The notes beneath the pieces are model-generated. The model was given only the letters and a program-made list of their open reading frames with translations, did not search any database and had not been told where the DNA came from. Below, piece by piece: positions 8,161 to 55,852 of a stretch of DNA of 64,000 nucleotides. The DNA is taken from NCBI GenBank assembly GCA_015069095.1, contig SVJH01000005.1, forward strand, positions 1 to 64,000, written 5' to 3'. This stretch comes from Oscillospiraceae bacterium (GTDB taxonomy: Bacteria > Bacillota > Clostridia > UMGS1810). Position 1 is the stretch's first letter. Each line of letters opens with the position of its first letter. The translations under genes were made by a program, and so were the position numbers.

Positions 8161-8189
8161 AAAATGACAAGGTTTCCTTGTCATTTTTT
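8161..8189 (+). terminator. intrinsic terminator after the ROK-like gene
   Basis: Perfect stem AAAATGACAAGG / CCTTGTCATTTT followed by T residues. Its stem matches the terminators at 15523 and 19078 almost exactly. Confidence 0.92.
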
Positions 8190-8206
8190 CTATATTGTGA
8201 TAAAAT
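8178..8206 (+). promoter_or_regulatory. promoter with -35 inside the terminator arm
   Basis: TTGTCA (8178-8183) is part of the terminator's 3' arm; 17 bp later comes TAAAAT (8201-8206) preceded by an extended -10 TGA. It faces the isomerase gene at 8385. Confidence 0.65.
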
Positions 8207-8231
8207 AGATTTAACTTAAGTTAAATCTATT
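8204..8231. promoter_or_regulatory. 28-bp perfect palindrome over the -10/start region (putative operator)
   Basis: AATAGATTTAACTT is followed by its exact reverse complement. It begins within the -10 box and covers the expected transcription start. A near-identical 27-bp palindrome occupies the same place in the minus-strand promoter near 60283. Confidence 0.6.
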
Positions 8232-8384
8232 CAACTTAATTTGCCTGATTTGACCGAGTCTAACAAATATTTTTCCGTATGTTTATGAGAATGAACTGGT
8301 AAGAATATAATATCGGAAATAATAATTCTGTTCGGTGCTTTCTCGTTATTTATTATAGCACTTGTAAAGAAAGGAATAGGAAAA

Positions 8385-29730: not shown

Positions 29731-29780
29731 GAACTTGGAATGAAAAACGCATCGTATTAAGATTTTTGGAGGAAGAATAT

Positions 29781-32506: not shown

Positions 32507-32508
32507 AT

Positions 32509-33519
32509 ATGATTTGGAAAAACGTATATTTTCATAATGTTGCAAGTTTAGTTACAAATGAAGATGGCAGTGTTTCGTGGCGAAGAGTTCCTGATTACGT
32601 TTATGATAATCTTGCAAAAGGCGAGCATTCAAAAATTCAGGCATCTAATGCCACAGGTGTTGAAATGCGTTTTATTTTAAAGGGAGAAAATGCAAAAATA
32701 ACAATTTCTGCCGATGGCGAGGGTGCGTTTCATATTTACCGTGGTTCAATCCAGGGAAGATGGCAGGATGAGTTTAAGTATGTAACAAGCACCCAAAAAG
32801 AATTTATAATAGACAGATGTGAAAAAGAAGAACGACTTAAGATAATGAAAGAAAAGTGCGACTATCCTTTTTCGTGGGATGTCGTACGAATTATTTTTGA
32901 CAGAGGACATTTTAAAATTCACAATATTGAAGGCGATATTGTACCTGCAACAAAAGAAAATTTTCCTAAGAAAACAATTCTTACATATGGTTCATCAATT
33001 ACACACGGTTCAAATGCACTTGACTCATCTCATACATGGGCATCTGTTTTAGCACATAACCTTAAAATGGACGTAAGAAATCTTGGTATGGCAGGATGCT
33101 GTATTATAGAAAATGAATTTGCAAACTATATTGCAAAAGAAGGCGAAGAGGGTAAGTGGGATATAGCAATACTTGAACTCGGTATAAATGTTCTTTTATG
33201 GGAAGAAGAAAAAATATACGAAAAAGTAACCAACATAATAAATCAGGTGGCGGGAAGAAACAAAGATAAAAAAGTTTTTGTAATTTCACCGTTTTATCAT
33301 TGTGGAGATGATTTTCTCCCAGAAAAAAATGGCGATAAATGGCGAAGAATAATAAAAGAAATTATAGAAGAATTAAAACATGAAAATGTTACATATATAA
33401 ACGGGCTTGATGTGCTTGATAATATGGAATATATGAGCGCTGACTTTGTACACCCTAACATTTACGGGGCTATGAAAATTGCTCATACACTTACGCAAAT
33501 AATAAAAGAGAAAATTTAA
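32509..33519 (+). CDS. SGNH/GDSL-family esterase, two-domain
   Basis: 336 residues. An N-terminal beta-sandwich (about 1-145), like the CE2/acetyl-xylan-esterase-type N-domain, is followed by an SGNH hydrolase domain. The nucleophile is in TYGSSITHG (S163) and the Asp/His pair in DFVHPN (D312, H315); ELGINVLLW occupies the block with the oxyanion residue. It likely removes acetyl groups from pectic oligosaccharides before or after the two GH28 proteins. It starts 2 bp after copy 2. Confidence 0.8.
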   Translation: MIWKNVYFHNVASLVTNEDGSVSWRRVPDYVYDNLAKGEHSKIQASNATGVEMRFILKGENAKITISADGEGAFHIYRGSIQGRWQDEFKYVTSTQKEFIIDRCEKEERLKIMKEKCDYPFSWDVVRIIFDRGHFKIHNIEGDIVPATKENFPKKTILTYGSSITHGSNALDSSHTWASVLAHNLKMDVRNLGMAGCCIIENEFANYIAKEGEEGKWDIAILELGINVLLWEEEKIYEKVTNIINQVAGRNKDKKVFVISPFYHCGDDFLPEKNGDKWRRIIKEIIEELKHENVTYINGLDVLDNMEYMSADFVHPNIYGAMKIAHTLTQIIKEKI

Positions 33520-41258: not shown

Positions 41259-41290
41259 AAAAAACCTCGGATTTATCCGAGGTTTTTTTA
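41259..41290. terminator. bidirectional terminator (metF / rpiR)
   Basis: AAAAAACCTCGGA / TCCGAGGTTTTTT stem; it ends the convergent metF and RpiR genes. Confidence 0.9.
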
Positions 41291-42124
41291 ATATTTTTTT
41301 GAAAGCAGTGAATGTTCTGTTTCTTTTATTGATTCAATTGCTTTTGACGAATGGCTTAATACAACATAAAAATAAAGTGAATCAACAATCGCAAGTTGGG
41401 CAATTCTTGAGTTTAGCGCAAGAATGTTGTATTCGGTTTCGTCCGAACTTGTAGGAAGGACGATATCTGTATATTTTAAAATAGGCGATTTGCCTTTGTT
41501 TGTAATGGCAATTGTGCTTGCTCCGTGTTCTTTTGCAATTTTTAATGCTTCAACGATATCTTTTGATGAACCCGAATGTGAAACTCCTATTGCAAGGTCG
41601 CTTTTTGTAAGATGTGATGCAGCAATAACCTGCATATGATTATCTGTATATGCAACGGCATTAAGTCCTGCACGAAGAAGTTTATGGCTTGCATCAATTG
41701 CAACTGATGCAGAGTTTCCAAGACCGAAAATAACAATTTTTTTCGCTTTGCATATTTCGTTTGCAGCTTCATTCATTAAAGAAGGAGAGAGCGATTTTTT
41801 TGTTTTTTCAAGTGATAAATAAATATCGTTACATACTTTTTCGTAAATATCGTATGCTTTGTCATCTTTTGTGATGTTTGTGCTGACGTGTGATTTTCCG
41901 CCTTCTTGCGCAAGTGAAATTTTAAGTTCCTGATATCCTGAAAGACCAAGTCTTTTTGAAAAACGCACAATTGTTGCTTCGCTGCACTTGCATTGCTCGG
42001 CAAGTTCTACAATAGATAAAGAAATTATCTTTCCCGGATTTTTCTCAATCCAGTCTGCTATTTGTTTTTCTGCTTTTCCCATTTCGTTATAAAGCATTTT
42101 TATATTAAGTAAAGTTTTTGCCAT
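41288..42124 (-). CDS. RpiR/MurR-family transcriptional regulator (HTH + SIS)
   Basis: 278 residues. N-terminal HTH_6 domain (about 1-75: MYNEMGKAEKQIADWI, CSEATIVRFSKRLGLSGYQE) and C-terminal SIS domain (about 105-270: IFGLGNSASVAIDASHKLLR, GVSHSGSSKDIVEALKIA) that senses a phosphosugar. It diverges from the 12-gene operon with dyads of its family type between them and most likely represses the operon and itself. ATG 42124 was chosen over TTG 42139, whose codons overlap the GGGG ribosome binding site. Confidence 0.88.
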   Translation of the reverse strand: MAKTLLNIKMLYNEMGKAEKQIADWIEKNPGKIISLSIVELAEQCKCSEATIVRFSKRLGLSGYQELKISLAQEGGKSHVSTNITKDDKAYDIYEKVCNDIYLSLEKTKKSLSPSLMNEAANEICKAKKIVIFGLGNSASVAIDASHKLLRAGLNAVAYTDNHMQVIAASHLTKSDLAIGVSHSGSSKDIVEALKIAKEHGASTIAITNKGKSPILKYTDIVLPTSSDETEYNILALNSRIAQLAIVDSLYFYVVLSHSSKAIESIKETEHSLLSKKY

Positions 42125-42157
42125 ATTATAACCCCGCAAAAAAATTTCGTCATTACT

Positions 42158-42186
42158 ATTTTATAATATGAAAAAAATTTTGTCAA
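42158..42186 (-). promoter_or_regulatory. promoter of the RpiR regulator gene
   Basis: Minus strand TTGACA (42186-42181), 17 bp, TAAAAT (42163-42158). An operator-like TGAAA-N4-TTTTG (42169-42182) fills the spacer, consistent with autorepression. Confidence 0.7.
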
Positions 42187-42187
42187 A

Positions 42188-42279
42188 TAAAAATTTTTTC
42201 ATAAAAAGTATTGAAATTTTTTTCATAATATGTTATAATTTGCACGTAATTTGGAGTTAAAAAATGAAAATTATTTTCA
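42188..42279. promoter_or_regulatory. cluster of RpiR-type dyads TGAAA-N4/5-TTTCA
   Basis: TGAAATTTTTTTCA (42212-42225) overlaps the operon's -35. TGAAAATTATTTTCA (42265-42279), a perfect 15-bp inverted repeat, lies just before the ribosome binding site. TAAAAATTTTTTCA (42188-42201) is a close variant. The pattern fits binding sites reported for RpiR-family regulators, so these are the likely operators. Confidence 0.6.
42211..42239 (+). promoter_or_regulatory. promoter of the 42.3-54.3 kb catabolic operon
   Basis: TTGAAA (42211-42216), 17 bp, TATAAT (42234-42239), overlapped by one of the dyads. Confidence 0.78.
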
Positions 42280-42291
42280 CGAGGTGATAAA

Positions 42292-43695
42292 ATGCTTGAT
42301 TACAGAGTAAAAATCGGACTTATTCCTGATATTCGTGATCTTGGTGATTTTGCCACACGAAAAGGGATTTTTGAACCGGCAAAAGGTGTTGAAAACAAAA
42401 ATAAAGTTGTTAAGTACATAAAAGAAAACTTTACAGATGACCTTACAGAGTTTTGTGATTTGGAATGGCTTAACGAACTTGGTGTTCTTTATAAAACAAC
42501 CGATGCTGGGAAAGTATGTGAGTATTTAAAAAAGGAAAAAGTTGATGCCATCTTTATTATCAACTGTAACTTTGGTAACGAGGAAGTATGCGGTCGTGTT
42601 GCTAAAGAAATGAATCTTCCTGTACTTCTTTGGGGACCACAGGATATGGTTTTTGAAGAAGACGGTTTAAGATACACAGATGCGCAGTGCGGTCTTTTTG
42701 CAATAAGTAAACAACTTCGACGTTATGACATTCCGTTTTCATATATTGAAAACTCTCCTGTTGAAAGTGATGTTTTCAAAGACGGACTAAATAGATTTTT
42801 ATCTGTTGTAACAATGGTTAAAAATTTTAAAAAATTAAATGTGGTTCAGGTAGGTACACGTCTTACACCGTTTAAAAGCGTTATGTATAACGAACTTGAA
42901 CTTATGCAGAAATTCGGAATAAATTTAAACAACGTAAATATGGCACAGTTTGAAGATAAGTTTGCAAAAGTACTTGTTTCAAAATCAGGCGAAATTATAA
43001 ATGATTTAGTTAAACTTAAACAAACTTATGACACAGCAAATCTTGATGATGAAACACTTAAGAAAATGCTTGCGTTTGTTTATGCATATATTGAAGTGTT
43101 TAGCGAACTTGATGCTGATGTTCTATCGAGTGAATGCTGGACAAGTATGCCACTTGCATTTGGTGCAAATCCTTGCCTTGCAATGAGTATTCTTTACGAT
43201 ATGGGATACATCGTAACTTGCGAATCTGATATTCACGGTGCTATTACAAATGCACTTTTAATGTGCGCTGCAAGAGGAAAAAAAGCACCTACATTCGGAG
43301 AATTTACAGTAAGACATCCACAAAATAAAAATGCAGAACTTTTGTGGCATTGCGGACCATTTCCAATGTCAGTTAAAGATGAAAACTCAAAGCCTAAACT
43401 TTACAATACAAAACCAAGTTTCAAAGCCAAAGACGGAAACTACACAATTGCACGTTTCCAAGGCGATAACGGCAAATACACACTGCTTGGTGGCGAATTT
43501 GAAACAGTTGAAGGACCTCATACATTCGGCACATATATGTGGGCACAGTTCAAAGACCTTTCAAAAGTAGAAAAGAAACTTATAAACGGACCATACATTC
43601 ATCATATGAGCGAAGTATACGGGCAGTATAAAGATGTACTTGAAGAATTTTGTAAGTTCATACCTGAACTTGAATTTGACCCAATAGAAGAATAA
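42292..43695 (+). CDS. L-fucose/L-arabinose isomerase-family protein
   Basis: 467 residues, shorter than FucI (about 590) but with its C-terminal active-site blocks: SSECWTSMPLAFGANPC (E281) and CESDIHGA (E311, D313), the metal-binding Glu and Asp of FucI/AraA. Members interconvert aldoses and ketoses with Mn2+; several family proteins have unknown or non-fucose substrates. As first gene of the operon it may make the ketose later phosphorylated by the FGGY kinase. GAGGTG precedes ATG 42292; the next gene starts 26 bp downstream. Confidence 0.75.
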   Translation: MLDYRVKIGLIPDIRDLGDFATRKGIFEPAKGVENKNKVVKYIKENFTDDLTEFCDLEWLNELGVLYKTTDAGKVCEYLKKEKVDAIFIINCNFGNEEVCGRVAKEMNLPVLLWGPQDMVFEEDGLRYTDAQCGLFAISKQLRRYDIPFSYIENSPVESDVFKDGLNRFLSVVTMVKNFKKLNVVQVGTRLTPFKSVMYNELELMQKFGINLNNVNMAQFEDKFAKVLVSKSGEIINDLVKLKQTYDTANLDDETLKKMLAFVYAYIEVFSELDADVLSSECWTSMPLAFGANPCLAMSILYDMGYIVTCESDIHGAITNALLMCAARGKKAPTFGEFTVRHPQNKNAELLWHCGPFPMSVKDENSKPKLYNTKPSFKAKDGNYTIARFQGDNGKYTLLGGEFETVEGPHTFGTYMWAQFKDLSKVEKKLINGPYIHHMSEVYGQYKDVLEEFCKFIPELEFDPIEE

Positions 43696-43721
43696 AAAAT
43701 TTACATAAAGGAGTAATAAAA

Positions 43722-44570
43722 ATGGATATTAACAGAATCAAAAGAGAGGATTTAGGAAAAGGTTCAAATATTAAACTTAATGTTTGTGAAGCAGAAGTTG
43801 ATATGTACTGGAAAGTTGCAATCGAAGTGCTTGAAACTATCGAAGAAAACAACAAAAAAGGCGAACCTACAATTATGGTAGTTCCTTATGGACCACTTGG
43901 CCCATACGCAAGAATTGTTTATCTTGTAAACAAATACAGAATCAGTCTTAAAAACTGTACTTTCATCAATATGGATGAATATCTTACAGACGACAAAAAA
44001 TACATTGATAAAAACGATCCGTTATCATTCAGAGGCGGTATGGACAGAATTTTCTACAGCCAGATTGATGATGAACTAAATGTATTACCTGAAAACAGAT
44101 ACTTCCCAGATCCTGAAAATCCGGGTAAAGTAATGGAACTTATTGAAAAACACGGAAAACTTGATATGGTATTTGGCGGTGTTGGTATTAACGGACACTA
44201 TGCATTTAATGAACCACCATACGGCGATGAAGAATTTACAAATGAAGAATTCTTAAACCGTCCTACAAGAGTACTTGAAGTTTCAAGAGAAACAAGAACA
44301 ATCAACTCATTTATGAACTGCGGCGGCGACCTTAACGGCATTCCAAAATACTGTATTACAGTTGGTATGAAAGAAATGTTTATGGCTAAAAAAGTAAGAA
44401 TGTGTATGCCACGTGACTGGAACGCAGGCGCACTTAGAAAAGTTCTTCATGGAGAAGTTACTGCAAAAGTTCCATGCTCACTATTCCAGAATCATCCTGA
44501 TGCTATGCTTTATGCTGCAGAAGTTGCACTTGCATCTCCGGTTCCTGAAATAAGAGTGTACAATAAATAA
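43722..44570 (+). CDS. glucosamine-6-phosphate deaminase-like protein (NagB family)
   Basis: 282 residues, NagB/RpiA/SOL fold. MDEYLTDD near residue 86 retains the first catalytic Asp region. The second block reads GVGINGHYAFNEP, with H159 and E164 conserved, but Asn 157 replaces the Asp (D141 of E. coli NagB) that normally pairs with the His. The C-terminal substrate-binding blocks are recognisable (RPTRVLEVSRETRTINSF, ITVGMKEM). It may act on a related amino-sugar phosphate or as an isomerase. The next gene begins 1 bp after its stop. Confidence 0.75.
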   Translation: MDINRIKREDLGKGSNIKLNVCEAEVDMYWKVAIEVLETIEENNKKGEPTIMVVPYGPLGPYARIVYLVNKYRISLKNCTFINMDEYLTDDKKYIDKNDPLSFRGGMDRIFYSQIDDELNVLPENRYFPDPENPGKVMELIEKHGKLDMVFGGVGINGHYAFNEPPYGDEEFTNEEFLNRPTRVLEVSRETRTINSFMNCGGDLNGIPKYCITVGMKEMFMAKKVRMCMPRDWNAGALRKVLHGEVTAKVPCSLFQNHPDAMLYAAEVALASPVPEIRVYNK

Positions 44571-44571
44571 T

Positions 44572-45735
44572 ATGAGTTACTTATTGATAAAAGGCGGTAA
44601 TGTAATTACCGGCGGAAAAATAACCAAAAAAGATGTTTTAATTAAAGATGAAAAAATAGTTGATACCGATTTTTCAGGCGAAATTCCTTGCGGATGCAAA
44701 ATTATTGATGCAAATAAAAAATACGTAAGTGCAGGATTTATTGATATTCATCTTCATGGCGGCGGTGGATATGATTTTATGGATTGTACAAAAGAAGCAT
44801 TTTGTGCTATTTCAAAAACGCATCTTGAAAACGGAACAACTCTTCTTGTGCCGACTGCAGTATCGAGCACATTTGAAAACATTTTGAATCTTATTAAAAC
44901 TTATAAAGAATGTATAGATGAGTGCCCTAACTTTTACGGAATTCATCTTGAAGGCCCATATATTTCAAAAAATCAGAAGGGTGCGCATAAAGAGTATTTA
45001 CTTCACAGCCCTACAAATGAAGAAATTGATATTTTGCTTTCTGAAGGCAATGGGGTAATTAAAAGAATTACGGCAGCACCTGAACTTGATAATATGGAGT
45101 ATTTTGCAAACAAGATGAAAGAAAACGGTATTAACCTTGCAATAGGTCATAGCGATGCAACAAGTGATGTTGCTCTTAAAGCCTTTAAAGACGGTTTTTC
45201 ACATGTTACACATCTTTATAGCGCAACACCGAGCGTAAGAAAAATAAATCAGGTTGTAAAAGCAGGTGTAGTTGAAGCAGCGTATCTTGATGATGACGTA
45301 ACTGTTGAACTTATTGCAGACGGAAAACATGCGGCAGTTGATGCACTTCGCCTTGCGGTAAAAATAAAAGGTACAGATAAAGTTGCTCTTGTAACAGATG
45401 CCTTAAGACCTGCAGGTACAGATGCGCGCGAAAGTTATCTTGGAGAAAAAATACCTGAAAACAGAGTTATTATTGAGGACGGAGTTGCAAAACTTCCAGA
45501 CCGTTCAACGTTTGCAGGAAGCATAGCAACAAGCAGTATGCTGCTTGAACGCGGTGTAAATCACTACGGACTTTCGCTTACTGATACAGTTAAAATGATT
45601 ACTGAAACGCCTGCAAAAATTTTAGGTGTTGAAAACAAAGGAAAAATACAAAATTCATTTATAGCAGATATCACTATATTTGATGAAAATTATAAAATAG
45701 AAAAAGTAATACTAAACGGAAAAATTATAAAGTAA
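44572..45735 (+). CDS. NagA-family amino-sugar-phosphate deacetylase, divergent
   Basis: 387 residues. All metal and catalytic residues align with the window's other NagA: HLHG (H60, H62), GHSDA (H193), THLYSA (H214) and TDALRPAG (D276). The substrate loop after H214 reads LYSATPSVRKINQ rather than LFNAM. This subgroup is common in Clostridia and its substrate could be GalNAc-6-phosphate or another N-acetylhexosamine phosphate. Coupled to the NagB-like gene; together they would deacetylate and deaminate or isomerise one substrate. Confidence 0.82.
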   Translation: MSYLLIKGGNVITGGKITKKDVLIKDEKIVDTDFSGEIPCGCKIIDANKKYVSAGFIDIHLHGGGGYDFMDCTKEAFCAISKTHLENGTTLLVPTAVSSTFENILNLIKTYKECIDECPNFYGIHLEGPYISKNQKGAHKEYLLHSPTNEEIDILLSEGNGVIKRITAAPELDNMEYFANKMKENGINLAIGHSDATSDVALKAFKDGFSHVTHLYSATPSVRKINQVVKAGVVEAAYLDDDVTVELIADGKHAAVDALRLAVKIKGTDKVALVTDALRPAGTDARESYLGEKIPENRVIIEDGVAKLPDRSTFAGSIATSSMLLERGVNHYGLSLTDTVKMITETPAKILGVENKGKIQNSFIADITIFDENYKIEKVILNGKIIK

Positions 45736-45750
45736 GAAAGGAAAAATAAA

Positions 45751-47175
45751 ATGACAGATTTTTTATTTGATGTAATTGCCACTGAACTTGAAGATGCGGT
45801 TGGCAGAGAAAACTGTTCTACAAGAACAATCGACAAAATTTCACACAGCGTTGACTACTTCTGGTTATCAAGAATGTGGGCAGACAGAGGTTTAAGAATG
45901 CCAGAAGGCGACTTTATTGTTGCTCCTAAAGATGCAAAAGAAGTTAGCGCAGTTTTAAAAATTGCGAACTACTATAAAATTCCTGTAACAACATGGGGTG
46001 CAGGTGGCGGTACACAGGGTGGTGCTATTCCTGTATGCGGCGGTATTGTACTTGATACAAAAAGAATGAACAAAATTTACGATGTTAACGAACAGGGTAT
46101 GTACATAGAATGTGGCACAGGTGCTATTTACAAACATATTGAATGGGCTGCAAATGAAAAAGGTTATGCAACAATGCATTATCCTTCATCACTTACTTGC
46201 TCAACTGTAGGCGGATTTTTAGCACATCGTGGTATTGGTGTATCATCTACAAAATATGGTAAAATTGATGATATGGTACTTCAGATGGAAGTTGTTCTTC
46301 CAAATGGTGATATCATCGAAACTTCTCCTGCTCCAAAACACGCTGCAGGTCCTGACCTTAACCAGATTTTCATTGGTTCTGAAGGCACACTAGGTGTTAT
46401 GACAAAAGCGCAGATGAGAATATACGAACAGCCTGAATCAAGACAGTTCAGAGGATTTTTATTCCACAATATGACAGATGCATTCAATGCAGGAAGAGAA
46501 CTACTACAGAAATTTAAACCTTCTGTAATGCGTTTATATGACGAAGCAGAAACTGCATCACTTATCAAAAAAATTGTTGGTGTTGAGAAAAAAGGCGCAT
46601 TTATGAACATCGCTATTGAAGGTGTTAAAGAAATGGCTGATCTTGAAATGAAAATTCTTCTTGAAACTTTTGGCAAATATGGTGCAGAAGATTTGGGAAG
46701 TGAATACGGCGAAAAATGGTGGAAAGAAAAAATCACTTTCTTCTATCCAGGTCATATGATGGATATTCCACAGTGCTTTGGTACAATGGATACAATTGCG
46801 CCTTACGATAAAATTGAAAAAATCTACTGGGCAATGAAAGAAGCAATCGAAACAAACTTCCCACAGGCAAAATTTATTGCACACTTCTCTCACTGGTATG
46901 AATGGGGTTGTATGATTTACGACAGATTTATTGTTGACGGAAAAGATGTTCCTAAGGATCCTCACGAAGCATTCAGACTTCATCAGGCAATCTGGAATTG
47001 CGGTGTTAGAACAGCACTTGCAAACGGCGGTGTTGTAAATGACCATCACGGCGTAGGCATTAAACTTGGACGTCTTATGAAAGAACAGTATGGCCCTGCA
47101 ATGCAGGTATTTGAAGGTATTAAAAAACAACTTGACCCTAACGGTATTATGAATCCGTTTAAACTTGGATTATAA
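45751..47175 (+). CDS. FAD-linked oxidoreductase (GlcD / alkyl-DHAP synthase-like)
   Basis: 474 residues. PCMH-type FAD domain with TWGAGGGTQGGAIPVCGGIV near residue 90, YPSSLTCSTVGGFLAHRGIG near 145 and GSEGTLGVMTKAQM near 208; the C-terminal substrate domain carries NDHHGVG near 431 and ends LDPNGIMNPFKLGL. Relatives oxidise 2-hydroxy acids such as D-lactate and glycolate, or bind DHAP-type substrates. The Fe-S protein encoded next and the operon's ETF are plausible electron acceptors. The presence of an oxidation step is unusual in an amino-sugar operon. Confidence 0.82.
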   Translation: MTDFLFDVIATELEDAVGRENCSTRTIDKISHSVDYFWLSRMWADRGLRMPEGDFIVAPKDAKEVSAVLKIANYYKIPVTTWGAGGGTQGGAIPVCGGIVLDTKRMNKIYDVNEQGMYIECGTGAIYKHIEWAANEKGYATMHYPSSLTCSTVGGFLAHRGIGVSSTKYGKIDDMVLQMEVVLPNGDIIETSPAPKHAAGPDLNQIFIGSEGTLGVMTKAQMRIYEQPESRQFRGFLFHNMTDAFNAGRELLQKFKPSVMRLYDEAETASLIKKIVGVEKKGAFMNIAIEGVKEMADLEMKILLETFGKYGAEDLGSEYGEKWWKEKITFFYPGHMMDIPQCFGTMDTIAPYDKIEKIYWAMKEAIETNFPQAKFIAHFSHWYEWGCMIYDRFIVDGKDVPKDPHEAFRLHQAIWNCGVRTALANGGVVNDHHGVGIKLGRLMKEQYGPAMQVFEGIKKQLDPNGIMNPFKLGL

Positions 47176-47191
47176 TAAGGAGGTAAAAACA

Positions 47192-48262
47192 ATGCAATTT
47201 ACACAGAAATCAAAAGAACACATAGATAGTTGCCGTTTTTGCTGGATGTGCCACCATGTATGTCCAATCGGAAACGCAACAGGACTTGAAAGAAATACAG
47301 CAAGAGCAAGAGCACTTGGACTTTCTCTTGTAGCAAGAGATGCTATTGAATATTCAGATGATATTATAAATAACGTTTATGAATGTTCACTTTGTGGCGG
47401 ATGTATGACAGACTGCGTAACCGGATGGGATCCTGTTATGTTTACTAAAGAAGCTCGTCTTGGCGCTGCGCTTGATGGAAAATTACCTTCTTATGTTATG
47501 AATATGCTAAATAATTTTAACGAAAAAGGTAATATTTACGGAGCAGAAAAAAATCCTAATATCCCTGTTTTTGAAGATGACGAAATTCTTTTCTTCCTTG
47601 GCGAAGATACAAGAAGTAAAGGATGCGCAAAAGAAGCAGTTGAACTTCTTAAAAAAGCAGGCGTTAAATTTGCAATGCTTGATAATGAACCAAATAGCGG
47701 TTATTCTTTAGACTTTTTAATAGGTGCCGCACAGGAAACAAAAACTGTTATGGAAGAATGTGCAAAAGTACTTAACAACTACAAAAAAGTAATCTGCTAT
47801 GACGGTTTTGACGCAAAAGTTATGATGCGTGAATATAAAGAATGGGGAATAGACCTTAAAGCAGAAGTTGTTACATTTACATCTTTTGTTGCAAGTCTTA
47901 TTGAAGAAGGTAAACTAAATGTTAAAAAAGGCGATTTGGTATTTACACCACAAGATAGCCCTGTTCTTGCAAGAGATTTAGAAGAAACAGAACCAATCCG
48001 TAAAATTCTATCTGCTTGCGGAACTGTTAACGAAATGCTACTTAACAAAGAACATACACAACTTGCAGGTAACCTTATTATGAACGAATATATGCCAAAT
48101 GTAATTGAGCAGGTTGCAAAAGACAGATGGAAAAATGCTCTTAATATGAATGCAAAAATTGTCGTAACTGAAAGCTGTGCAGAATACATTATGCTTTCAA
48201 AAACAAAACCTGAAAATGTTGAACTTTTAAAACTTGAGGAGGCAGTTCTAAAATGCTTGTAA
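47192..48262 (+). CDS. Fe-S protein, GlcF/LutA-like partner of the FAD dehydrogenase
   Basis: 356 residues. Two [4Fe-4S] motifs at the N-terminus: CRFCWMCHHVCP near residue 14 and CSLCGGCMTDC near residue 68. The remainder resembles the CCG-domain region of GlcF/HdrD proteins but with few of its cysteines. It likely relays electrons from the FAD subunit. ATG 47192 was chosen because AAGGAGG lies 8 bp before it. Its end overlaps the aldolase start by 10 bp. Confidence 0.8.
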   Translation: MQFTQKSKEHIDSCRFCWMCHHVCPIGNATGLERNTARARALGLSLVARDAIEYSDDIINNVYECSLCGGCMTDCVTGWDPVMFTKEARLGAALDGKLPSYVMNMLNNFNEKGNIYGAEKNPNIPVFEDDEILFFLGEDTRSKGCAKEAVELLKKAGVKFAMLDNEPNSGYSLDFLIGAAQETKTVMEECAKVLNNYKKVICYDGFDAKVMMREYKEWGIDLKAEVVTFTSFVASLIEEGKLNVKKGDLVFTPQDSPVLARDLEETEPIRKILSACGTVNEMLLNKEHTQLAGNLIMNEYMPNVIEQVAKDRWKNALNMNAKIVVTESCAEYIMLSKTKPENVELLKLEEAVLKCL

Positions 48263-49092
48263 GTCTTGGAGAAATTCTTAATATAGCAGAAAAAGGTAGC
48301 TTTGCTATTCCTGCATTCAATGTTTATAATATGGAAACTGTTATGGGCGTTTTAAAAGCGGCAGAAGAAACAAAAGCACCTATAATTATGCAGGTTTATC
48401 CTCGTCTTATGAAAGAAGAAGCAGGATACTTCTTATCTCCTGTAATTGTGGCAGCTGCTAAAAAAGCAACAGTTCCTGTATGTTTCCACTTAGACCATGG
48501 TCCAAGTGAACTTGAAACTACACGTTCAATCCGCTATGGCGCAACAGGAATAATGCTTGATGGCTCAACACTTCCGTTTGAAGAAAATATTGCTCTTACT
48601 AAAAGAGTAGTTGAAGTATGCTCATATGCAGGAATTCAGGTTGAAGGCGAACTTGGTCACGTTGGCACAACAAATGATGATTCGATGGATGAATTTACTA
48701 CAGCAGATGATGCTAAACGTTTTATTGAAGAAACAGGCGTTTCTTGTCTTGCAGTAGCAGTAGGTACAGCACATGGAAGATATAAAAAACCGCCTAAACT
48801 TGATATTGATAGAATTAAAGAAATAAGAAAAGCAACAAATAATGCCGCACTTGTGCTTCACGGCGGAAGCGGTGTGGGCGAAGATGAAGTTAAAAAAGCA
48901 GTAGCAGCAGGTATTCGCAAAATGAATTTTGCAACAGATATTTGTTATTCTTTCCTTGATACTTGTCTTGAAGAACTTAATAAACCTGACAGAGCAATTG
49001 CTATTGATAACTTTATGAAAAAACCAATCGAAGCAGTAAAAGAGTTCTGTATTACAAAAATTAAACTTGTAGGTGCAGACGGAAAGGCTTAA
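48253..49092 (+). CDS. class II (zinc) ketose-bisphosphate aldolase
   Basis: 279 residues, FbaA/KbaY/IolJ family. Zinc ligands and catalytic blocks: CFHLDHGPS near residue 80, EGELGHVG near 132, VGTAHGRY near 175 and LHGGSGV near 203. It cleaves a ketose 1-phosphate or bisphosphate to DHAP plus an aldehyde. Directly followed by PfkB and IolB, it could be a tagatose-1,6-bisphosphate aldolase (GalNAc route) or an IolJ-like aldolase (inositol route); sequence alone does not decide. Confidence 0.85.
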   Translation: MLVSLGEILNIAEKGSFAIPAFNVYNMETVMGVLKAAEETKAPIIMQVYPRLMKEEAGYFLSPVIVAAAKKATVPVCFHLDHGPSELETTRSIRYGATGIMLDGSTLPFEENIALTKRVVEVCSYAGIQVEGELGHVGTTNDDSMDEFTTADDAKRFIEETGVSCLAVAVGTAHGRYKKPPKLDIDRIKEIRKATNNAALVLHGGSGVGEDEVKKAVAAGIRKMNFATDICYSFLDTCLEELNKPDRAIAIDNFMKKPIEAVKEFCITKIKLVGADGKA

Positions 49093-49095
49093 AAA

Positions 49096-50007
49096 ATGGC
49101 AGATATAGTTGGAATTGGTGCAAATGTATGTGATACACTGTTTGAAGTACCGCATTACCCTAAAGAAGATACAAAACTAAAAGCTGAAGGTGTTAAACTT
49201 TCAGGCGGAGGACCTTGCGCAACAGGTCTTGTTGCGGCATCTAAACTTGGTGCAGATTGCGCTTATATAGGCGCTCTTACAGATGATGCATCTGGCGTAT
49301 TTTTAAACGATGATTTAAAAAAATACAATGTGTCAACAGAATTTGTAACTTATGAAAAAGGGTATAATTCGTTTTCATCGTGCATCTGGCTTTCAAAAGA
49401 AAGTGCATCGAGAACTTGCGTGTTTTTTAGGGGTAACATTCCCCCAGTAAAACTTAATGATAATCAAAAAAATGCAATAAAAGAAGCAAAAATTCTTATG
49501 ATAGACGGAAACGAAATGGACGCGGCGATAGAAGGCGCACGTATTGCAAACGAAAACGGCACAAAAGTTTTATACGATGCCGGTGGACTTTATGAAGGTG
49601 TTGAAAACCTTTTGCCTTATGCCGATATTTTAATTCCGTCAGAGGAATTTGCCGTCGGTCATACAGGCGCAAAAGATGCGCGCGCTGCTGCAAAAATTCT
49701 TTATGAAAAATATAATCCTGAAATTGTAGTTATTACGCAGGGCAAAAAAGGCGGAATAATTTTTGATGGAAAACAGGTAAAAGAATATCCTGCATTTTTG
49801 GTTGATGCAGTAGATTCTAATGGTAGCGGCGACGTTTTTCACGGAGCATTTGCATTTAGTGTAAATAAAGGTTATAATTATTATGATGCTTGTGTATTTT
49901 CAAGTGCCGTTTCAGCACTTAAATGCACAAAGGTCGGCTCAAGAGAGTCTGTTCCGACATTTGAGGAAACAATTAACTTTTTAAAGGAGCGTGGCATAAA
50001 TGTATAA
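49096..50007 (+). CDS. PfkB-family carbohydrate kinase
   Basis: 303 residues, ribokinase fold. N-terminal VGIGANVCDTLFEV and LSGGGPCATG motifs, and the C-terminal active site DSNGSGDVFHGAFAFS near residue 245 with the catalytic Asp. It probably phosphorylates the substrate of the aldolase encoded just upstream (3 bp gap); candidates are tagatose-6-phosphate or 5-keto-2-deoxygluconate. Its end overlaps iolB-like by 8 bp. Confidence 0.85.
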   Translation: MADIVGIGANVCDTLFEVPHYPKEDTKLKAEGVKLSGGGPCATGLVAASKLGADCAYIGALTDDASGVFLNDDLKKYNVSTEFVTYEKGYNSFSSCIWLSKESASRTCVFFRGNIPPVKLNDNQKNAIKEAKILMIDGNEMDAAIEGARIANENGTKVLYDAGGLYEGVENLLPYADILIPSEEFAVGHTGAKDARAAAKILYEKYNPEIVVITQGKKGGIIFDGKQVKEYPAFLVDAVDSNGSGDVFHGAFAFSVNKGYNYYDACVFSSAVSALKCTKVGSRESVPTFEETINFLKERGINV

Positions 50008-50785
50008 AAGAAGTTGGAATAAAAAATTTGGTAAAAGCGAAATTTTTAAATTTGAAGATAGCTATTGCCAGAAAGTAGAAATGGATATGCTTCGTCTTAA
50101 AGACGGAGATAAAAAATCATACAGAGAAGAAAACAAAGAATATGCTCTTGTAATTCTTGGTGGTAAATGTACAGTAAAAGGAGAAGGATTTGCGTTTGAA
50201 AATGCAGGTAAAAGAAAAGATGTGTTTGATGGCGCGGCAACTTGTATATATGTTCCTGCAAATAATCCTTTTACAGTTGAAGCGGTAGGCGAAGTTTCAA
50301 TTGCTGTATGTAAATCTCCTTCAGATAAGGATTTTGCACCTGCTATTGTAAATCCTGAAGATGTAATAATCAAAAATTTAGGAAAACCTGGCTGGGAAAG
50401 AGAAGCACACTTTATTTTGGATGAAAGAGTAGATTCAAATATGCTTTATATAGGCGAAGCATTTGTTAAAGGCGGTCAGTGGGCAAGTTATCCACCTCAC
50501 AAACACGATGACGACAATATGCCAACAGAAGCCGAAACAGAAGAAATTTATTACTATGAATTTAAACAGCCTCAGGGCTTTGGTATTCAGAAAGTTTACA
50601 CAATGGAAGGCGATATTGACGAAACATACACAGTTAAAAGTGGCGATTTTGTAGAAATCCCTCGCGGATACCATCCTTTCCACGCTGCACCTGGATATGA
50701 TAACTATTATCTTTGGATAATGGCAGGAAAAGACAGAGGCTTTTATATGACAACAGATGAGGACCACAAATGGCTTAATAACTAA
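50000..50785 (+). CDS. 5-deoxy-glucuronate isomerase family (IolB-like)
   Basis: 261 residues, two-cupin fold. The IolB signature SYPPHKHDDDNMPTEAETEE, then IYYYEF, lies near residues 163-187, with GDFVEIPRGYHPFHAAPGYD near 215 giving metal-binding His. IolB converts 5-deoxy-glucuronate to 5-keto-2-deoxygluconate in myo-inositol degradation. The earlier inositol genes (iolG, iolE, iolD) and iolA are not in the window, so an altered substrate is quite possible. Confidence 0.85.
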   Translation: MYKRSWNKKFGKSEIFKFEDSYCQKVEMDMLRLKDGDKKSYREENKEYALVILGGKCTVKGEGFAFENAGKRKDVFDGAATCIYVPANNPFTVEAVGEVSIAVCKSPSDKDFAPAIVNPEDVIIKNLGKPGWEREAHFILDERVDSNMLYIGEAFVKGGQWASYPPHKHDDDNMPTEAETEEIYYYEFKQPQGFGIQKVYTMEGDIDETYTVKSGDFVEIPRGYHPFHAAPGYDNYYLWIMAGKDRGFYMTTDEDHKWLNN

Positions 50786-50796
50786 GAGGTAAAAAT

Positions 50797-51447
50797 ATGC
50801 TTGAAATATTAAGAAAACTAAATCCAGATATCGAAATGTACAGTATACACGATGAAAAATTCAAAACGTACGGAAAAGTTCTTGATATTGATACAGATGA
50901 AATTGTAAACATATGCAAAAAAATACAGCTGCCACAAGAGGGCAGCTTGTATTTGATGCAGGAAAAAGAACTTGAAAATGCAAAAAATGCAAATAAAATA
51001 AAAGAAATGCTTTTCGGCACTTTGGATGCTCAGATTGGTCTTTGTATGGGGTACAATTCGTATCTTAATGCACTTGAGTATCACAATAGCAGTGAAATAA
51101 ACATAGCAGCAACGGATCTTGTTTTAATACTTGCACATCGCTATGAAATGGATAAAGACAACAGACTTGACAGCAAAAAGGCAGTGGCGTTTTATCTTAA
51201 AAAAGGCGATGCAGTTGAAGTTTTTGCTACAACTATGCATTTTTGCCCATGTCAGGTTTTGGATGACGGATTTTTGTGTGTTGTTGTTTTGCCAAAAGGT
51301 ACAAACGACATTTTAGATAAAGAAAGTGATGACAAACTTTTATTTAAAAAGAATAAATGGATTATTTGCCATGAAGATAACACATCACTTATAGAAAGAA
51401 AAGTTCGGCCAGGAATTTACGGACCGAACTACGAAATAAAATATTAA
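50797..51447 (+). CDS. DUF4867 family protein
   Basis: 216 residues of uncharacterised family DUF4867. Visible features: QIGLCMGYNSYLNALEYHNS near residue 75, VLILAHRYEMD and a cupin-like stretch FATTMHFCPCQV near 150 with His and two Cys, and a conserved C-terminal GPNYEIKY. The cupin-like pattern and position between IolB and a kinase suggest a sugar isomerase or binding protein, which is only inference. Confidence 0.72.
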   Translation: MLEILRKLNPDIEMYSIHDEKFKTYGKVLDIDTDEIVNICKKIQLPQEGSLYLMQEKELENAKNANKIKEMLFGTLDAQIGLCMGYNSYLNALEYHNSSEINIAATDLVLILAHRYEMDKDNRLDSKKAVAFYLKKGDAVEVFATTMHFCPCQVLDDGFLCVVVLPKGTNDILDKESDDKLLFKKNKWIICHEDNTSLIERKVRPGIYGPNYEIKY

Positions 51448-51458
51448 CGGTGAAAAAA

Positions 51459-52931
51459 ATGAAATATTTACTTGGTATAGATTTTGGCGGCGGTGCATCA
51501 AAAGCCACGCTTATAGGCGATGACGGAAAAATTTATGCAACGCACACAACTGAATATGAAACAATATATTCAAAACCAGGCTTCGCAGAGCAAAATCCTG
51601 AAGAATGGGTAAGTGCTACGATTGAAAACATTAAAGGTGTTTTAAGTAAAAGTAGGGTAGATGCTGGCGATATAATTGCCATTTCGCTTGATGCTGCAAC
51701 TCATACTGCAGTAATTATGGATGAAAACTTTAAACCAATAAGAAATGCAATATACTGGACAGATACAAGAAGCACTAAGGAAGTTGAATTTTTAAAAGAA
51801 AATTATGCAGATGTAATAGATAAAGAGGTGCTTCATAAGCCCGATACAATCTGGACACTTCCTGAACTTTTATGGATAAAAAACAATGACAAGGAAAATT
51901 GGGCAAATGTAGAAAAAATACTTTTTGCAAAGGACTATGTAAGACATAAACTTACAGGCGATTATGTAACAGACTATATAGAAGCCGAAGGCAGTATGAT
52001 GTTTGATATCAATACACTTAAATGGTCTGATGAACTTTTAGGCATTTTAGGTCTTGATGCGTCAATGATGCCAGAAATTAAAAAACCTACAGATATAGTA
52101 GGCACTGTTACAAAAGAAGCAGAACTTCTTACAGGTCTTAAAGAAGGGACAAAAGTTCTTTGCGGTACAACTGATACTGTTATGGAAGTTTTCGCATCTG
52201 GTGCGGTTAAAAAAGGTCAGATGACACTTAAACTTGCAACGGCAGGAAGAATTTGCGTAATTACAGATAAGCCGTATCCTGATGTTAATCTTATAAACTA
52301 TTCTCATGTAATCGATTCACTTTTCTATCCTGGTACTGCAACAAAATCGTGTGCAGCATCATACAGATGGTTTCGTGATACTTTCGGCGGAGATTATAAG
52401 GAACTTGACAAAATGGCACAAAGCATACCGATAGGTAGTGACGGACTTGTTTTTCATCCGTATTTGAACGGTGAACTTACGCCGTATGCAAACCCTAATC
52501 TTTGTGCAGATTTTGTAGGTGTAAGAGCATCTCATACAAAAGCGCATTTTACAAGAAGTGTTTTAGAAGGCGTTGCAATGAGTATGCTCGACTCAAAAGA
52601 GGCGCTTGACAGTTTAAACATTGAGCACGATGATGCAGCAGTTATTATTGGTGGTGGTGGCAAAAGCCCACTTTGGCGTCAGATGATTTCAGATGCACTT
52701 GGAATTAAACTTTATGAAATGAAATATGCAGATTCATCTTTTGGCAGTGCTATGCTTGCGGGCGTTGCAATGGGCATTTTTGAAAACTACGAAGATGCAC
52801 TTAATAAATGCAACGAAGTAATAAGCGAAACCCTGCCAAACGAAGAAAACACAAAACAGTACAGAAAACTATTTAAAAAATACAAAGCCGTTCAAAAGGC
52901 ACTTGAGCCAATTTACAACGGGAATTATTAA
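51459..52931 (+). CDS. FGGY-family carbohydrate kinase (xylulokinase-like)
   Basis: 490 residues, actin-like ATPase fold. LGIDFGGGASKATLI at the start (phosphate 1), AATHTAVIMD, YWTDTRS near residue 105, GTTDTVMEVFASGAV near 240, and IGGGGKSPLWRQMISDALG near 400 (adenosine motif). It phosphorylates a ketose or polyol, most likely the product of the operon's isomerase. ATG 51459 is preferred to GTG 51450, which overlaps the weak GGTGA site. Confidence 0.85.
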   Translation: MKYLLGIDFGGGASKATLIGDDGKIYATHTTEYETIYSKPGFAEQNPEEWVSATIENIKGVLSKSRVDAGDIIAISLDAATHTAVIMDENFKPIRNAIYWTDTRSTKEVEFLKENYADVIDKEVLHKPDTIWTLPELLWIKNNDKENWANVEKILFAKDYVRHKLTGDYVTDYIEAEGSMMFDINTLKWSDELLGILGLDASMMPEIKKPTDIVGTVTKEAELLTGLKEGTKVLCGTTDTVMEVFASGAVKKGQMTLKLATAGRICVITDKPYPDVNLINYSHVIDSLFYPGTATKSCAASYRWFRDTFGGDYKELDKMAQSIPIGSDGLVFHPYLNGELTPYANPNLCADFVGVRASHTKAHFTRSVLEGVAMSMLDSKEALDSLNIEHDDAAVIIGGGGKSPLWRQMISDALGIKLYEMKYADSSFGSAMLAGVAMGIFENYEDALNKCNEVISETLPNEENTKQYRKLFKKYKAVQKALEPIYNGNY

Positions 52932-52952
52932 GCAAAAAGGAGAGTGCACAAT

Positions 52953-54308
52953 ATGAAAATACTTGTATGTGTAAAAGTTATAAAGGGCGAAGTTAACCCA
53001 TTTGATGCTTCTGCGCTTGAATGTGCACTCACACTTTCAAATGATGTAACAGTTATTTCAATGGGACCGCAATCGGCTAAAGAAACACTAAAACCACTTA
53101 CACGCCTTGGTGCAAAAGTAAAACTTATAAGTGATGCACTATATGCAGGGTCCGATACACTTGCTACTTCTTATGTGCTTTCAACCGCAATAAAAAATAT
53201 GGAATATGACCTTATTTTATGCGGAAGACAAAGTATAGACGGCGATACTGCACAGGTTGGTCCTATGCTTTCTGATATGCTTGGTATTGGTCTTATAACA
53301 AATGCACTGAGTGTAGAAATAAAAGATAACGACGTTTTTGCAAAAACACGTTTTGGAGAAGAAAAGACACCACTTCCTGCACTTGTAACGGTTGAAAGAG
53401 GTTATGTACTTAGATTTCCAAGTATTTTTTCGCTCATTGGCGAAGTTGAAATAATAGATAATTCTAATTTGAATTGCGACGAAAAAAGATGCGGTTTGAG
53501 CGGTTCACCAACAAAAGTGCTTAAAACTTTTGAAAACGAACGCGGAAAAAGAAAATGCAAGTTTATCCCGTTTTCTGAGCTTGATTCTTTAATAGAAACT
53601 TTAAAAAATGAAAAAGAAGAAAAAGAAGACATTAAAAGTGATGAAAATGTAAAACTAAAAAGCGTATGGGCAGTTGGAGAAGATGTTTATAAAAAGGCTG
53701 AAGAAATCTCAGATGAAGTTATTTTAATAGAAGAAACACAGCCTGAAATTATTGCAAAAAAGGCAAGAGAAGAAAACCCTGAAGTAATACTTTTTGATGC
53801 ATCACTTTGGGGAAGAAAATATGCACCTATTGTGGCATCGATGCTAAATACAGGACTTTGTGCAGACTGCACACATCTTGAAACAGACGGAAAACTTCTT
53901 TATATGTACCGACCTGCTGGGGGCGGAAATATAACGGCAAAAATAAAGTGCGACACATTTCCTCAAATGGCAACAGTAAGAACAAAATCAAAGAGTAGTG
54001 ATATAATAGTTTCAGGCGGTAAAGGAGTTTTTGGAAAACTTGACAAATTAAATGAATTTGCCAAAAAATACGATGCCGAAATTGCAGGATCCCGAGGTCT
54101 TGTTGATTTAAACGGTATTTCATACGATAAGCAAATAGGTCTTACAGGCAAAACTGTAAGTCCAAAAATTTATATTGCTGTTGGAATTTCAGGCGCTGTG
54201 CATCATACTTGTGCGGTAGAAGGCGCAAAAACAGTGATTGCAATAAATCCTGATAAAGATGCACGTATTTTTGAATATGCAGATTATGGAATATTAGAAG
54301 AGTTTTAA
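52953..54308 (+). CDS. single-chain electron transfer flavoprotein (EtfB-EtfA fusion)
   Basis: 451 residues. Residues 1-210 are EtfB: MKILVCVKVIKGEVNPFDAS, GSDTLATSY, GRQSIDGDTAQVGPMLSDML near 93. Residues about 240-451 are EtfA: ILFDASLWGRKYAPIVASML, PAGGGNITAKI and the FAD-binding SRGLVDLNG, QIGLTGKTVSPKIYIAVGIS and INPDKDARIFEYADYGI. Both parts are shortened compared with separate subunits. ETFs carry electrons from flavin dehydrogenases; the likely donor is the FAD/Fe-S pair in this operon. A hairpin terminator follows at 54345. Confidence 0.85.
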   Translation: MKILVCVKVIKGEVNPFDASALECALTLSNDVTVISMGPQSAKETLKPLTRLGAKVKLISDALYAGSDTLATSYVLSTAIKNMEYDLILCGRQSIDGDTAQVGPMLSDMLGIGLITNALSVEIKDNDVFAKTRFGEEKTPLPALVTVERGYVLRFPSIFSLIGEVEIIDNSNLNCDEKRCGLSGSPTKVLKTFENERGKRKCKFIPFSELDSLIETLKNEKEEKEDIKSDENVKLKSVWAVGEDVYKKAEEISDEVILIEETQPEIIAKKAREENPEVILFDASLWGRKYAPIVASMLNTGLCADCTHLETDGKLLYMYRPAGGGNITAKIKCDTFPQMATVRTKSKSSDIIVSGGKGVFGKLDKLNEFAKKYDAEIAGSRGLVDLNGISYDKQIGLTGKTVSPKIYIAVGISGAVHHTCAVEGAKTVIAINPDKDARIFEYADYGILEEF

Positions 54309-54600
54309 AAGGCACCCTTAAGGGCGTTGGTCTTAAGGATAAAATTAAAACCGAGTGAAAATAAATCACTCGGTAATTTTATTGTTTGAATATTGTAGGG
54401 GACGGCCTCCTGGACGTCCCGTAAAGCCTCCCTTGTGTAAAGGGAGGGGGACCACATTAGTGGTGGAGGGATTGTAAATGTTAAAATTGCTACAGAAACA
54501 ATCCCTCAGTCTTTCCTTACGGAAATCCAGCTCCCTTTACACAAGGGAGCCTTTTTTAAAAATCCCTAACACGCACCCACTTAAGGGAGCCTTTTTTATT
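54308..54600 (+). repeat. composite palindromic intergenic repeat, copy 1
   Basis: Three modules: 54308-54385 (GGCACCCTTAAGGG, GGTCTTAAGGATAAAA and a terminator hairpin), 54392-54557 (ATTGTAGGGGACGG, CCTCCCTTGTGTAAAGGGAG, GACCACATTAGTGGTGGAGG, ACAATCCCTCAGT, CTCCCTTTACACAAGGGAG) and a short tail to 54600 (CACCCACTTAAGGGAGCC). The same modules occur in reverse orientation at 56671-57014. It is much more GC-rich than its surroundings and has no coding capacity that I trust; it resembles a MITE-like family. Confidence 0.8.
54345..54384 (+). terminator. intrinsic terminator of the 12-gene operon
   Basis: CCGAGTGA / TCACTCGG stem (54351-54358 and 54366-54373), 7-nt loop, then TAATTTTATT. Confidence 0.78.
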
Positions 54601-54658: not shown

Positions 54659-55852
54659 ATGGATACTGTATATGACGTAGTTGTTTGCGGTGGTGGTGTT
54701 GCCGGTGTAAGTGCGGCTCTTGCAAGTGCAAGGGGAGGAGCAAAAACACTTTTAATTGAAAAAGGATACAACCTTGGTGGCCTTGCTACACTTGGACTTA
54801 TTGTTATATATCTTCCGCTTGATGACGGCGATGGCGTTAAAATGAGCAGTGGAATATGTGAAGAACTTATAAAAAATGCATATAAGTACGGTCCAAAATG
54901 CGGAAAGCCAAATGGCTGGCTTAAGTCATCCGAAATTCCTAAAGTTTGGCAAGATGAAAATGCTACAAGTATAGAAGATAGAAAAGGTATAAGATATCTT
55001 ACACAGTATAATCCGGCATCATTTATGATTTCTATGGAAGAACTTCTTTTGGAAAATGGTGTTAAAATACTTTATGATGCACATTTAACAGACGTAGTTT
55101 GCGATGATAAAAAAGTAAAGGAAATTGTAATTTCAACTAAAAAAGGTCCTTTGAAACTCTCAGCAAAAGCGTTTATAGATGCGACAGGCGATGCAGATCT
55201 TTGCTATTTTGCAGGCGAAAAAACAATAGACGATAACACAAACAGAAGAACAGGTTGGTATTATTCATACAATGGAAATACAGTAGCACTTCATCAGCAA
55301 ACAGACCCTGTTTACAGTGAAATTCCACCTACAAGCAGACTTTATTCCGGAACAGATATTGAAGATATATCTCAAAATGTAATTGATGGAAGAAAAATGA
55401 TTCTTGACCACATTACAAAACTTAATGGTGGAGATTTTGATAAAGAATATCCAATTATTATTCCTTCGTATCACGGACTTCGTGTTACAAGACGACTTGA
55501 CACAGGATTTTATTTTAGTGAAAACAAACACGACAGAGTATGGTTTAATGATGCAATCGGTATGATTGGCAACTGGAAAAAAGATAGCCACAGATATTCA
55601 ATTCCGTACAGAAGCATAAAAGCGGTTAAAAATAACAATCTTTTTGCGGCAGGAAGATGCGTTGCAGCATCAAAAAGTGGAAGTGATTTAACAAGAGTAA
55701 TTCCTTCTTGTGCTGTAACAGGTGAGGCAAGTGGTGTTGCGGCTGCGTTTATTGCTAAAAACGGATATGAAGCTGATATTAAAACATTGCAAAACGAACT
55801 TGTAAGAAATGGCGTATTGCTTAATAAAACCCTTTTTGACAAAGAAGAATAA
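54659..55852 (+). CDS. FAD-dependent oxidoreductase (FAD_oxidored family)
   Basis: 397 residues. Rossmann GxGxxG in VVVCGGGVAGVSAALASARG (about 8-27), followed by LLIEKGYNLGGLATLG; FIDATGDADLCYFAGE near residue 174 and LFAAGRCVAASKSGSDLTRV near 325 are the second and third FAD motifs. The family is poorly characterised and found near carbohydrate genes in Bacillota. It has its own promoter and AAGGGGG site. It is flanked by the composite repeats together with yajC and the TIGR04086 gene. Confidence 0.8.
   Translation: MDTVYDVVVCGGGVAGVSAALASARGGAKTLLIEKGYNLGGLATLGLIVIYLPLDDGDGVKMSSGICEELIKNAYKYGPKCGKPNGWLKSSEIPKVWQDENATSIEDRKGIRYLTQYNPASFMISMEELLLENGVKILYDAHLTDVVCDDKKVKEIVISTKKGPLKLSAKAFIDATGDADLCYFAGEKTIDDNTNRRTGWYYSYNGNTVALHQQTDPVYSEIPPTSRLYSGTDIEDISQNVIDGRKMILDHITKLNGGDFDKEYPIIIPSYHGLRVTRRLDTGFYFSENKHDRVWFNDAIGMIGNWKKDSHRYSIPYRSIKAVKNNNLFAAGRCVAASKSGSDLTRVIPSCAVTGEASGVAAAFIAKNGYEADIKTLQNELVRNGVLLNKTLFDKEE

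Follow-up and report, generated by a model that had tools for sequence, protein, structure and literature searches.

The 64,000-nucleotide stretch of contig SVJH01000005.1 from an Oscillospiraceae bacterium analysed here (the window, whose coordinates are used throughout; relatives are cited as genomes, G, and loci, L) carries an operon at 42292-54308 whose eleven + strand genes lie close together, about -11 to +26 bp apart in the open reading frame (ORF) listing; it probably provides about nine enzymes, common to gut and rumen Clostridia, for oxidising and splitting an unusual acidic sugar. In order the genes are ISO (isomerase), NAGB, NAGA, FAD (flavin dehydrogenase), FES (Fe-S protein), ALD (aldolase), PFKB (kinase), IOLB (isomerase), D4867 (DUF4867 protein), FGGY (kinase) and ETF (electron-transfer flavoprotein). 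An RpiR/MurR-family regulator gene lies opposed to them (41288-42139, - strand; Pfam HTH_6, 85 bits, and SIS, 79 bits), and its homolog is divergently placed beside the operons of many relatives. A sequence-only reading had described twelve same-strand genes with gaps of -10 to +26 bp diverging from an RpiR gene; order, strand, coordinates, gap range and opposed regulator are as it gave them, while the count falls to eleven, the twelfth being the RpiR gene on the - strand. Pfam and NCBIfam bear out its family names for RpiR, NagA, the FAD domains, the 4Fe-4S protein, class II aldolase, PfkB, IolB, DUF4867, FGGY and EtfBA, and are weaker on three others: the isomerase is below the Pfam cut-off, the NagB-like protein below every NCBIfam cut-off, and the GlcD match far below its own.

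The linkage emerges from a survey of 391 genomes of the class, in which neighbourhood genes were called by ORF and BLAST and the ISO subfamily was defined by at least 45% identity; most of the relatives are metagenome-assembled genomes, and contig ends may mimic missing neighbours. The ISO subfamily occurs in 22 of the 391 genomes, FAD in 26 and both in 21, i.e. FAD is present in 21 of the 22 ISO carriers vs 26 of 391 genomes overall (Fisher p 5e-29, phylogeny ignored). Some 28 genomes, drawn from many families, share the core, FAD-FES-ALD-PFKB-IOLB-(DUF4867 or aldose 1-epimerase)-FGGY-ETF; several of them come from gut, rumen or faecal samples. G402 (71%) and G503 (59%), which are not of this class, hold more distant copies. 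In many genomes ISO adjoins the core, and in G005, G006, G057, G126 and G194 it is found at another place. The gene-neighbourhood search that the sequence-only reading had proposed thus finds conserved neighbours, more than chance, and the gene set is a conserved functional unit.

Upstream of ISO lies a strong promoter-like site (42211-42239, + strand; TTGAAA-17-TATAAT with TG before the -10 box, 11 of 12 matches); such sites are overall no commoner than in shuffled sequence, and its position is the argument for this one. Two palindromes are candidate RpiR operators: TGAAATTTTTTTCA at 42212-42225, overlapping the -35 box, and TGAAAATTATTTTCA at 42265-42279, 12 bp before the first gene. The palindrome, TGAAA-N4/5-TTTCA in its RpiR-type form and counted as TGAAA-N3-7-TTTCA, is found upstream in 18 of 22 operon copies, against a background of 0.02 per 250 bp; it stands before ISO and before FAD on separate contigs of G126, and likewise before ISO-NAGA-NAGB in G006 and before the FAD operon in G005. 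It resembles the consensus of NanR-regulated promoters, GAAAAATATTTTC in C. perfringens and TCTGAAASTACTTTCARA in S. pneumoniae (PMC4509764). We infer that the operon is under RpiR repression through these candidate operators. A co-regulated transporter sought in the window genome by operator was not found; none of the three further A/T-centred sites inspected adjoins a transporter, and each falls within coding sequence or at the start of a gene. Among seven other genomes, a plausible operator-like target elsewhere came to light only in G011, before a GH2/42-like gene (GH, glycoside hydrolase). This gene (L190:4383-6308) has the operon palindrome 107 bp upstream and is a possible regulon member. 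A search for RNA elements with Rfam found none.

NAGA and NAGB are optional, not core: they sit inside the operon in G000, G011, G182 and G402 only, and adjoin ISO in G005/G006. NAGA (44572-45735, + strand) belongs to the N-acetylglucosamine-6-phosphate deacetylase family, with 281 bits against TIGR00221 (cut-off 226), which is above the cut-off for a NagA deacetylase of N-acetylglucosamine or N-acetylgalactosamine (GalNAc) catabolism; NAGB (43722-44570, + strand) stays below those for the NagB deaminase/isomerase, with 104 bits vs a cut-off of 237 for the nagB model and 45 vs 271 for galactosamine-6-phosphate isomerase, and has no Pfam match. An alignment of six members shows that the NAGB subfamily has GINGH, with Asn for Asp, at the position of GxDGH, which we take to be the canonical NagB active-site motif; with this Asp replaced, NAGB is by its residues not a canonical deaminase. 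The amino-sugar or amino-sugar-acid pathway built on these two genes, as the sequence-only reading had proposed, is therefore placed by us among the improbable explanations: most operons are without NagA/NagB and NAGB is noncanonical, even though NAGA passes its model, both genes do enter the G011, G182 and G402 operons and accompany ISO in G005/G006, and the palindrome is NanR-like. GalNAc (aga) catabolism also combines NagA-like, NagB-like, PfkB and class II aldolase proteins, but the present operon has no phosphotransferase system and only optional NagA/NagB. Other genes are similarly local, the G402 and G182 operons adding Gfo/Idh and TIM-barrel genes and that of G011 MurQ/GKRP-like and ManA-like genes. 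The MurQ/GKRP-like SIS protein of G011 (L112:2137-3831, 565 aa) is encoded between the NagA- and NagB-like genes.

The most conserved gene of the set is FAD (45751-47175, + strand; Pfam FAD_binding_4/FAD-oxidase_C), an ADPS/GlcD-like flavin dehydrogenase. It scores 197 bits against the GlcD model (cut-off 568), and its nearest relatives by sequence and fold are alkyl-dihydroxyacetone-phosphate (alkyl-DHAP) synthases (ADPS/AGPS), with D-lactate dehydrogenases next. HxGDGNxH and GEHG, which we take to be the active-site motifs of GlcD/D-lactate dehydrogenase, were sought in FAD and not found; it carries the ADPS-type motifs AHFSHWYEWG and DHHGVG instead, and H378, H381, Y383 and H432-H433-G434 are invariant in 15 of 15 aligned relatives. 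Between the window and G009, G011, G057 and G074, which belong to different families, the FAD protein is 97-99% identical, yet fourfold-degenerate sites match at just 0.44-0.57 and are nearly saturated; the FES, ALD, PFKB, FGGY and ETF proteins are 58-86% identical, and their fourfold sites have diverged much like those of FAD. The near-identity of FAD indicates strong purifying selection, as judged from codon sites. Recent horizontal transfer of FAD is unlikely because its fourfold sites are as diverged as those in neighbouring genes. Its conservation resembles that of a core enzyme.

FES (47165-48262, + strand, with a possible ATG start at 47192; Fer4_8 and Fer4_17) has two 4Fe-4S motifs and lies 3' of FAD in those relatives whose contigs reach that far, and ETF (52944-54308, + strand; PF01012 and PF00766) is a fused beta-alpha electron-transfer flavoprotein with bifurcating ETFs among its best PDB matches. 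FAD's homology to GlcD and D-lactate dehydrogenase and its ETF partner recall the EtfAB-lactate dehydrogenase (LctBCD), which likewise couples a GlcD-superfamily flavoenzyme to ETF, and could suggest that FAD/FES/ETF oxidise lactate or glycolate, joined to a deoxy-sugar pathway that gives lactaldehyde or glycolaldehyde. We regard this as decidedly improbable, since FAD shares its two motifs with alkyl-DHAP synthase and the operon lacks an aldehyde dehydrogenase; moreover, it differs from LctBCD in its fused ETF, extra Fe-S subunit, ADPS-like active site and sugar-operon setting. From alkyl-DHAP synthase FAD differs in its setting, a catabolic operon with an Fe-S protein and ETF and no ether-lipid gene. 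At L143:9215-13479 (G411), homologs of FAD (35%) and FES (23%) adjoin glycerol kinase-like and GlpA-like (glycerol-3-phosphate dehydrogenase-like) genes, as read from their sequences; such a context would fit a phosphorylated substrate.

ISO (42292-43695, + strand) represents a divergent subfamily of FucI/AraA-fold aldose-ketose isomerases. It falls below the Pfam cut-off (20.6 vs 29.3), and its sole NCBIfam match is the SftI (sulfoquinovose isomerase) model, at E 3e-32 and 112 bits vs a cut-off of 700; its AlphaFold model (pLDDT 93.6) has the L-arabinose/L-fucose isomerase fold, with TM-scores mostly of 0.80-0.84 to arabinose isomerases and 0.73-0.77 to fucose isomerases. PFKB (49096-50007, + strand) is a PfkB-family kinase whose nearest solved relative is sulfofructose kinase (7AG6, 111.6 bits; ribokinase 91.8, ketohexokinase 83.7), a ketose-1-kinase, and ALD (48253-49092, + strand; F_bP_aldolase, 293 bits) is a class II DHAP-dependent aldolase for which 7NCC and 8Q58 score about equal. 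The kinase and the isomerase have their nearest counterparts in enzymes that handle a C6-anionic sugar, which counts in favour of an acidic substrate. D4867 (50797-51447, + strand; PF16161, 223 bits) is a DUF4867 cupin of the SftX/SqvB family and a putative mutarotase, which aligns with the solved DUF4867 protein 9GYY at 191 bits and retains the metal-site motifs EYHxSSE and TTxHF.

These similarities raise the question of sulfoquinovose, which a variant of the sulfoglycolytic Embden-Meyerhof-Parnas (sulfo-EMP) pathway would degrade. ISO would then be the sulfoquinovose isomerase, DUF4867 would stand for SqvB, PFKB and ALD would serve as sulfofructose kinase and sulfofructose-phosphate aldolase, and FAD would act on sulfolactate. 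Sulfo-EMP2 and sulfo-transaldolase (sulfo-TAL) clusters (SqvD, SqvB, SqiK, SqiA) do share with the operon a FucI-like isomerase, DUF4867, a ketose kinase and a class II aldolase, SftI is the only model that ISO matches, and PFKB and DUF4867 (the SqvB/SftX family, PMC11968277) point the same way. We nevertheless consider the proposal highly improbable: SqvB is present by family, but ISO is far below the SftI/SqvD cut-off; no sulfoquinovosidase or sulfolactaldehyde reductase or dehydrogenase was recognised in the neighbourhoods read; IOLB and FGGY would have no role, and together with FAD/FES/ETF they are extra to the sulfo clusters; and DUF4867 is also found in non-sulfo aldose/ketose clusters (PMC11968277). 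An SqiK-type kinase (PF00365) was not found in the cluster, whose kinases are PfkB and FGGY, and a PF00365 protein lies near one relative's operon only (L077).

The slot between IOLB and FGGY is occupied by DUF4867 in the window, G009, G074, G126, G362, G005 and SVIL, by an aldose 1-epimerase in four operons (G057, G194, L051 and L054; Pfam made the family call for L051 and L054, similarity elsewhere), by both in G011, and by just a short gap in others. SqvB is likewise exchanged for the aldose epimerase YihR in some sulfoglycolysis clusters (PMC9594981). Mutarotase activity of SftX was not detected in an assay confined to non-paramagnetic metals (PMC11968277). The swap seen here supports, but does not prove, a mutarotase role for DUF4867 in what would be a second pathway, and offers a direct handle on the role of DUF4867 (SftX/SqvB) in sulfoglycolysis and related pathways.

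FGGY (51450-52931, + strand) just misses the XylB (xylulokinase) cut-off (378 vs 380 bits), and the operon copy is the sole above-threshold match for this protein in the window genome. Given that no XylA match was found in that genome, and that a FucI-like/DUF4867/FGGY operon of C. saccharobutylicum includes a kinase required for growth on xylose (PMC6158908), ISO and FGGY could be the isomerase and kinase of a xylose-like pentose pathway. This too is scarcely probable: G009, G025 and G182 hold the operon plus a separate XylA-XylB pair, and IOLB and FAD/FES/ETF would be left unexplained. The standard xylose pathway is unlikely for the same coexistence. The same triad of families defines the DUF4867-FucI-FGGY 'aldose/ketose' clusters, the largest cluster of the DUF4867 network (PMC11968277), to which the operon core adds IOLB, PFKB, ALD and FAD/FES/ETF. 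IOLB (50000-50785, + strand) is an IolB/KduI-family isomerase (TIGR04378, 250 bits vs a cut-off of 205) whose residues PHKHD ... EE ... GYH are retained in nearly all aligned members. In conservation it ranks next to FAD, with 84-92% identity in many copies, though G074 and a few more stand at about 40%. In myo-inositol catabolism (IolB-IolC-IolJ) an IolB-family isomerase, a PfkB kinase and a class II aldolase are also adjacent, but that pathway is excluded here: IolD is above the TIGR04377 cut-off in 0 of 22 operon genomes, and PFKB is far below the IolC cut-off (96 vs 300 bits). With IolD absent, IOLB therefore works outside the inositol pathway.

The operon is modular. Module B comprises FAD, FES, IOLB, the mutarotase (DUF4867 or aldose 1-epimerase), FGGY and ETF, and module A comprises ISO, PFKB and ALD. 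In L046, L047, L048 and L051 module B is contiguous and followed by ISO, ALD and PFKB in some order (L048 begins at FES, at a contig end), in G126 the two modules are on different contigs, and in L073-L076 homologs of PFKB-ISO-ALD-DUF4867 occur with no module B alongside. G503, the most distant copy, keeps ALD with module B and has a TRAP transporter by the operon. Separable and contiguous modules, a free-standing PFKB-ISO-ALD-D4867 set and the arabinose/fucose isomerase fold of ISO would suit a two-substrate operon, in which module A takes a neutral aldose through ketose and ketose-1-phosphate to DHAP plus an aldehyde and module B takes an acidic sugar, both released from one conjugate (an aldobiuronic acid or glycoside). 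We judge this unlikely but deserving of serious weight, given that ISO and FAD nearly always co-occur and share an operator-like site, and that ALD is retained with module B in G503. At L074:3350-15851, the PFKB-ISO-ALD-DUF4867 homologs are accompanied by genes for aldehyde dehydrogenase, glycerate 2-kinase and enolase; this operon is likely, from its predicted genes, a complete ketose-1-phosphate pathway, and the additional enzymes would fit DHAP and a C3 aldehyde as the products of cleavage.

Our preferred reading, which we hold tentatively, is that the operon, repressed by RpiR, breaks down a carboxylated sugar of the hexuronate/aldonate type oxidatively and without oxygen, with aldol cleavage to DHAP as the last step. 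Gene set, linkage, operator-like site and folds were computed here; we infer the substrate class and the order of steps. A sugar acid is favoured because the core includes an IolB/KduI-family isomerase, G503 has a TRAP transporter and PFKB resembles an anionic-ketose kinase. The substrate would be imported by a transporter encoded outside the operon, the mutarotase (DUF4867 or aldose 1-epimerase) would open the ring, IOLB and ISO would isomerise between aldose and ketose, one of the kinases (FGGY or PFKB) would phosphorylate the ketose or keto-acid, and ALD would split the phosphorylated product into DHAP and a short aldehyde. FAD may oxidise a hydroxyl group, on the sugar acid itself or on its phosphate, with FES relaying the electrons to the fused ETF. 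NagA/NagB, Gfo/Idh with TIM-barrel, ManA-like and MurQ/GKRP-like proteins may be lineage-specific feeders for a derivatised substrate. Several points weigh against this carboxylated-sugar pathway. The TRAP hint comes from a single distant genome, in most operon copies no gene is an obvious candidate for handling the aldehyde product, the motifs of FAD are not those of 2-hydroxy-acid dehydrogenases, and having two isomerases and two kinases would equally suit the use of two sugars; a common glycoside hydrolase, sought near the operons as a clue to the substrate, was not found, the carbohydrate-active neighbours varying among genomes (GH36, GH4, GH110-like, GH43).

The sequence-only reading had held that no transporter is encoded, that no standard pathway needs all of these genes and that the set may be undescribed, possibly acting on an unusual substrate such as an amino-sugar acid. 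There is indeed no transporter among the operon genes, comparison with known systems agrees that none uses the whole set, and no description of this combination was found in the literature searched, although the parts belong to known families; for the substrate, the sugar-acid half of the guess is the better supported, and the amino-sugar half is not supported. The nearest described systems are the DUF4867 sulfoglycolysis and aldose/ketose clusters (PMC11968277), sulfo-EMP2 (PMC9594981) and the C. saccharobutylicum xylose operon (PMC6158908). It is possible, if doubtful, that the operon breaks down acidic sugars by a new anaerobic pathway: before aldol cleavage to DHAP, an ADPS-like flavoenzyme would oxidise the sugar acid or its phosphate, working with an Fe-S protein and with a fused ETF that is possibly electron-bifurcating. 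The operon is widespread among uncultured Clostridia of gut and rumen and may give them a new way to use sugar acids from plants or hosts.

The operon is followed by a terminator-like stem (54350-54374). Beyond it, FADOX (54659-55852, + strand), a FAD_oxidored protein by family match, has its own promoter-like site and is a possible outlying member; a 55% homolog lies immediately 3' of FGGY in G402. The intergenic region between ETF and FADOX (54400-54600) is rich in repeats, with inverted CTCCCTT/AAGGGAG units that are possibly a small mobile repeat. Elsewhere in the window, a separate cluster at 3898-9239 encodes a DUF4838/GH67N-like protein, a second NagA-like amidohydrolase, a ROK-like protein and a TIM-barrel isomerase, while two GH28 proteins and a GDSL esterase at 29766-33519 suggest pectin use; another GH28-like gene, judged by eye, lies on the same contig (L164:7868-9169).

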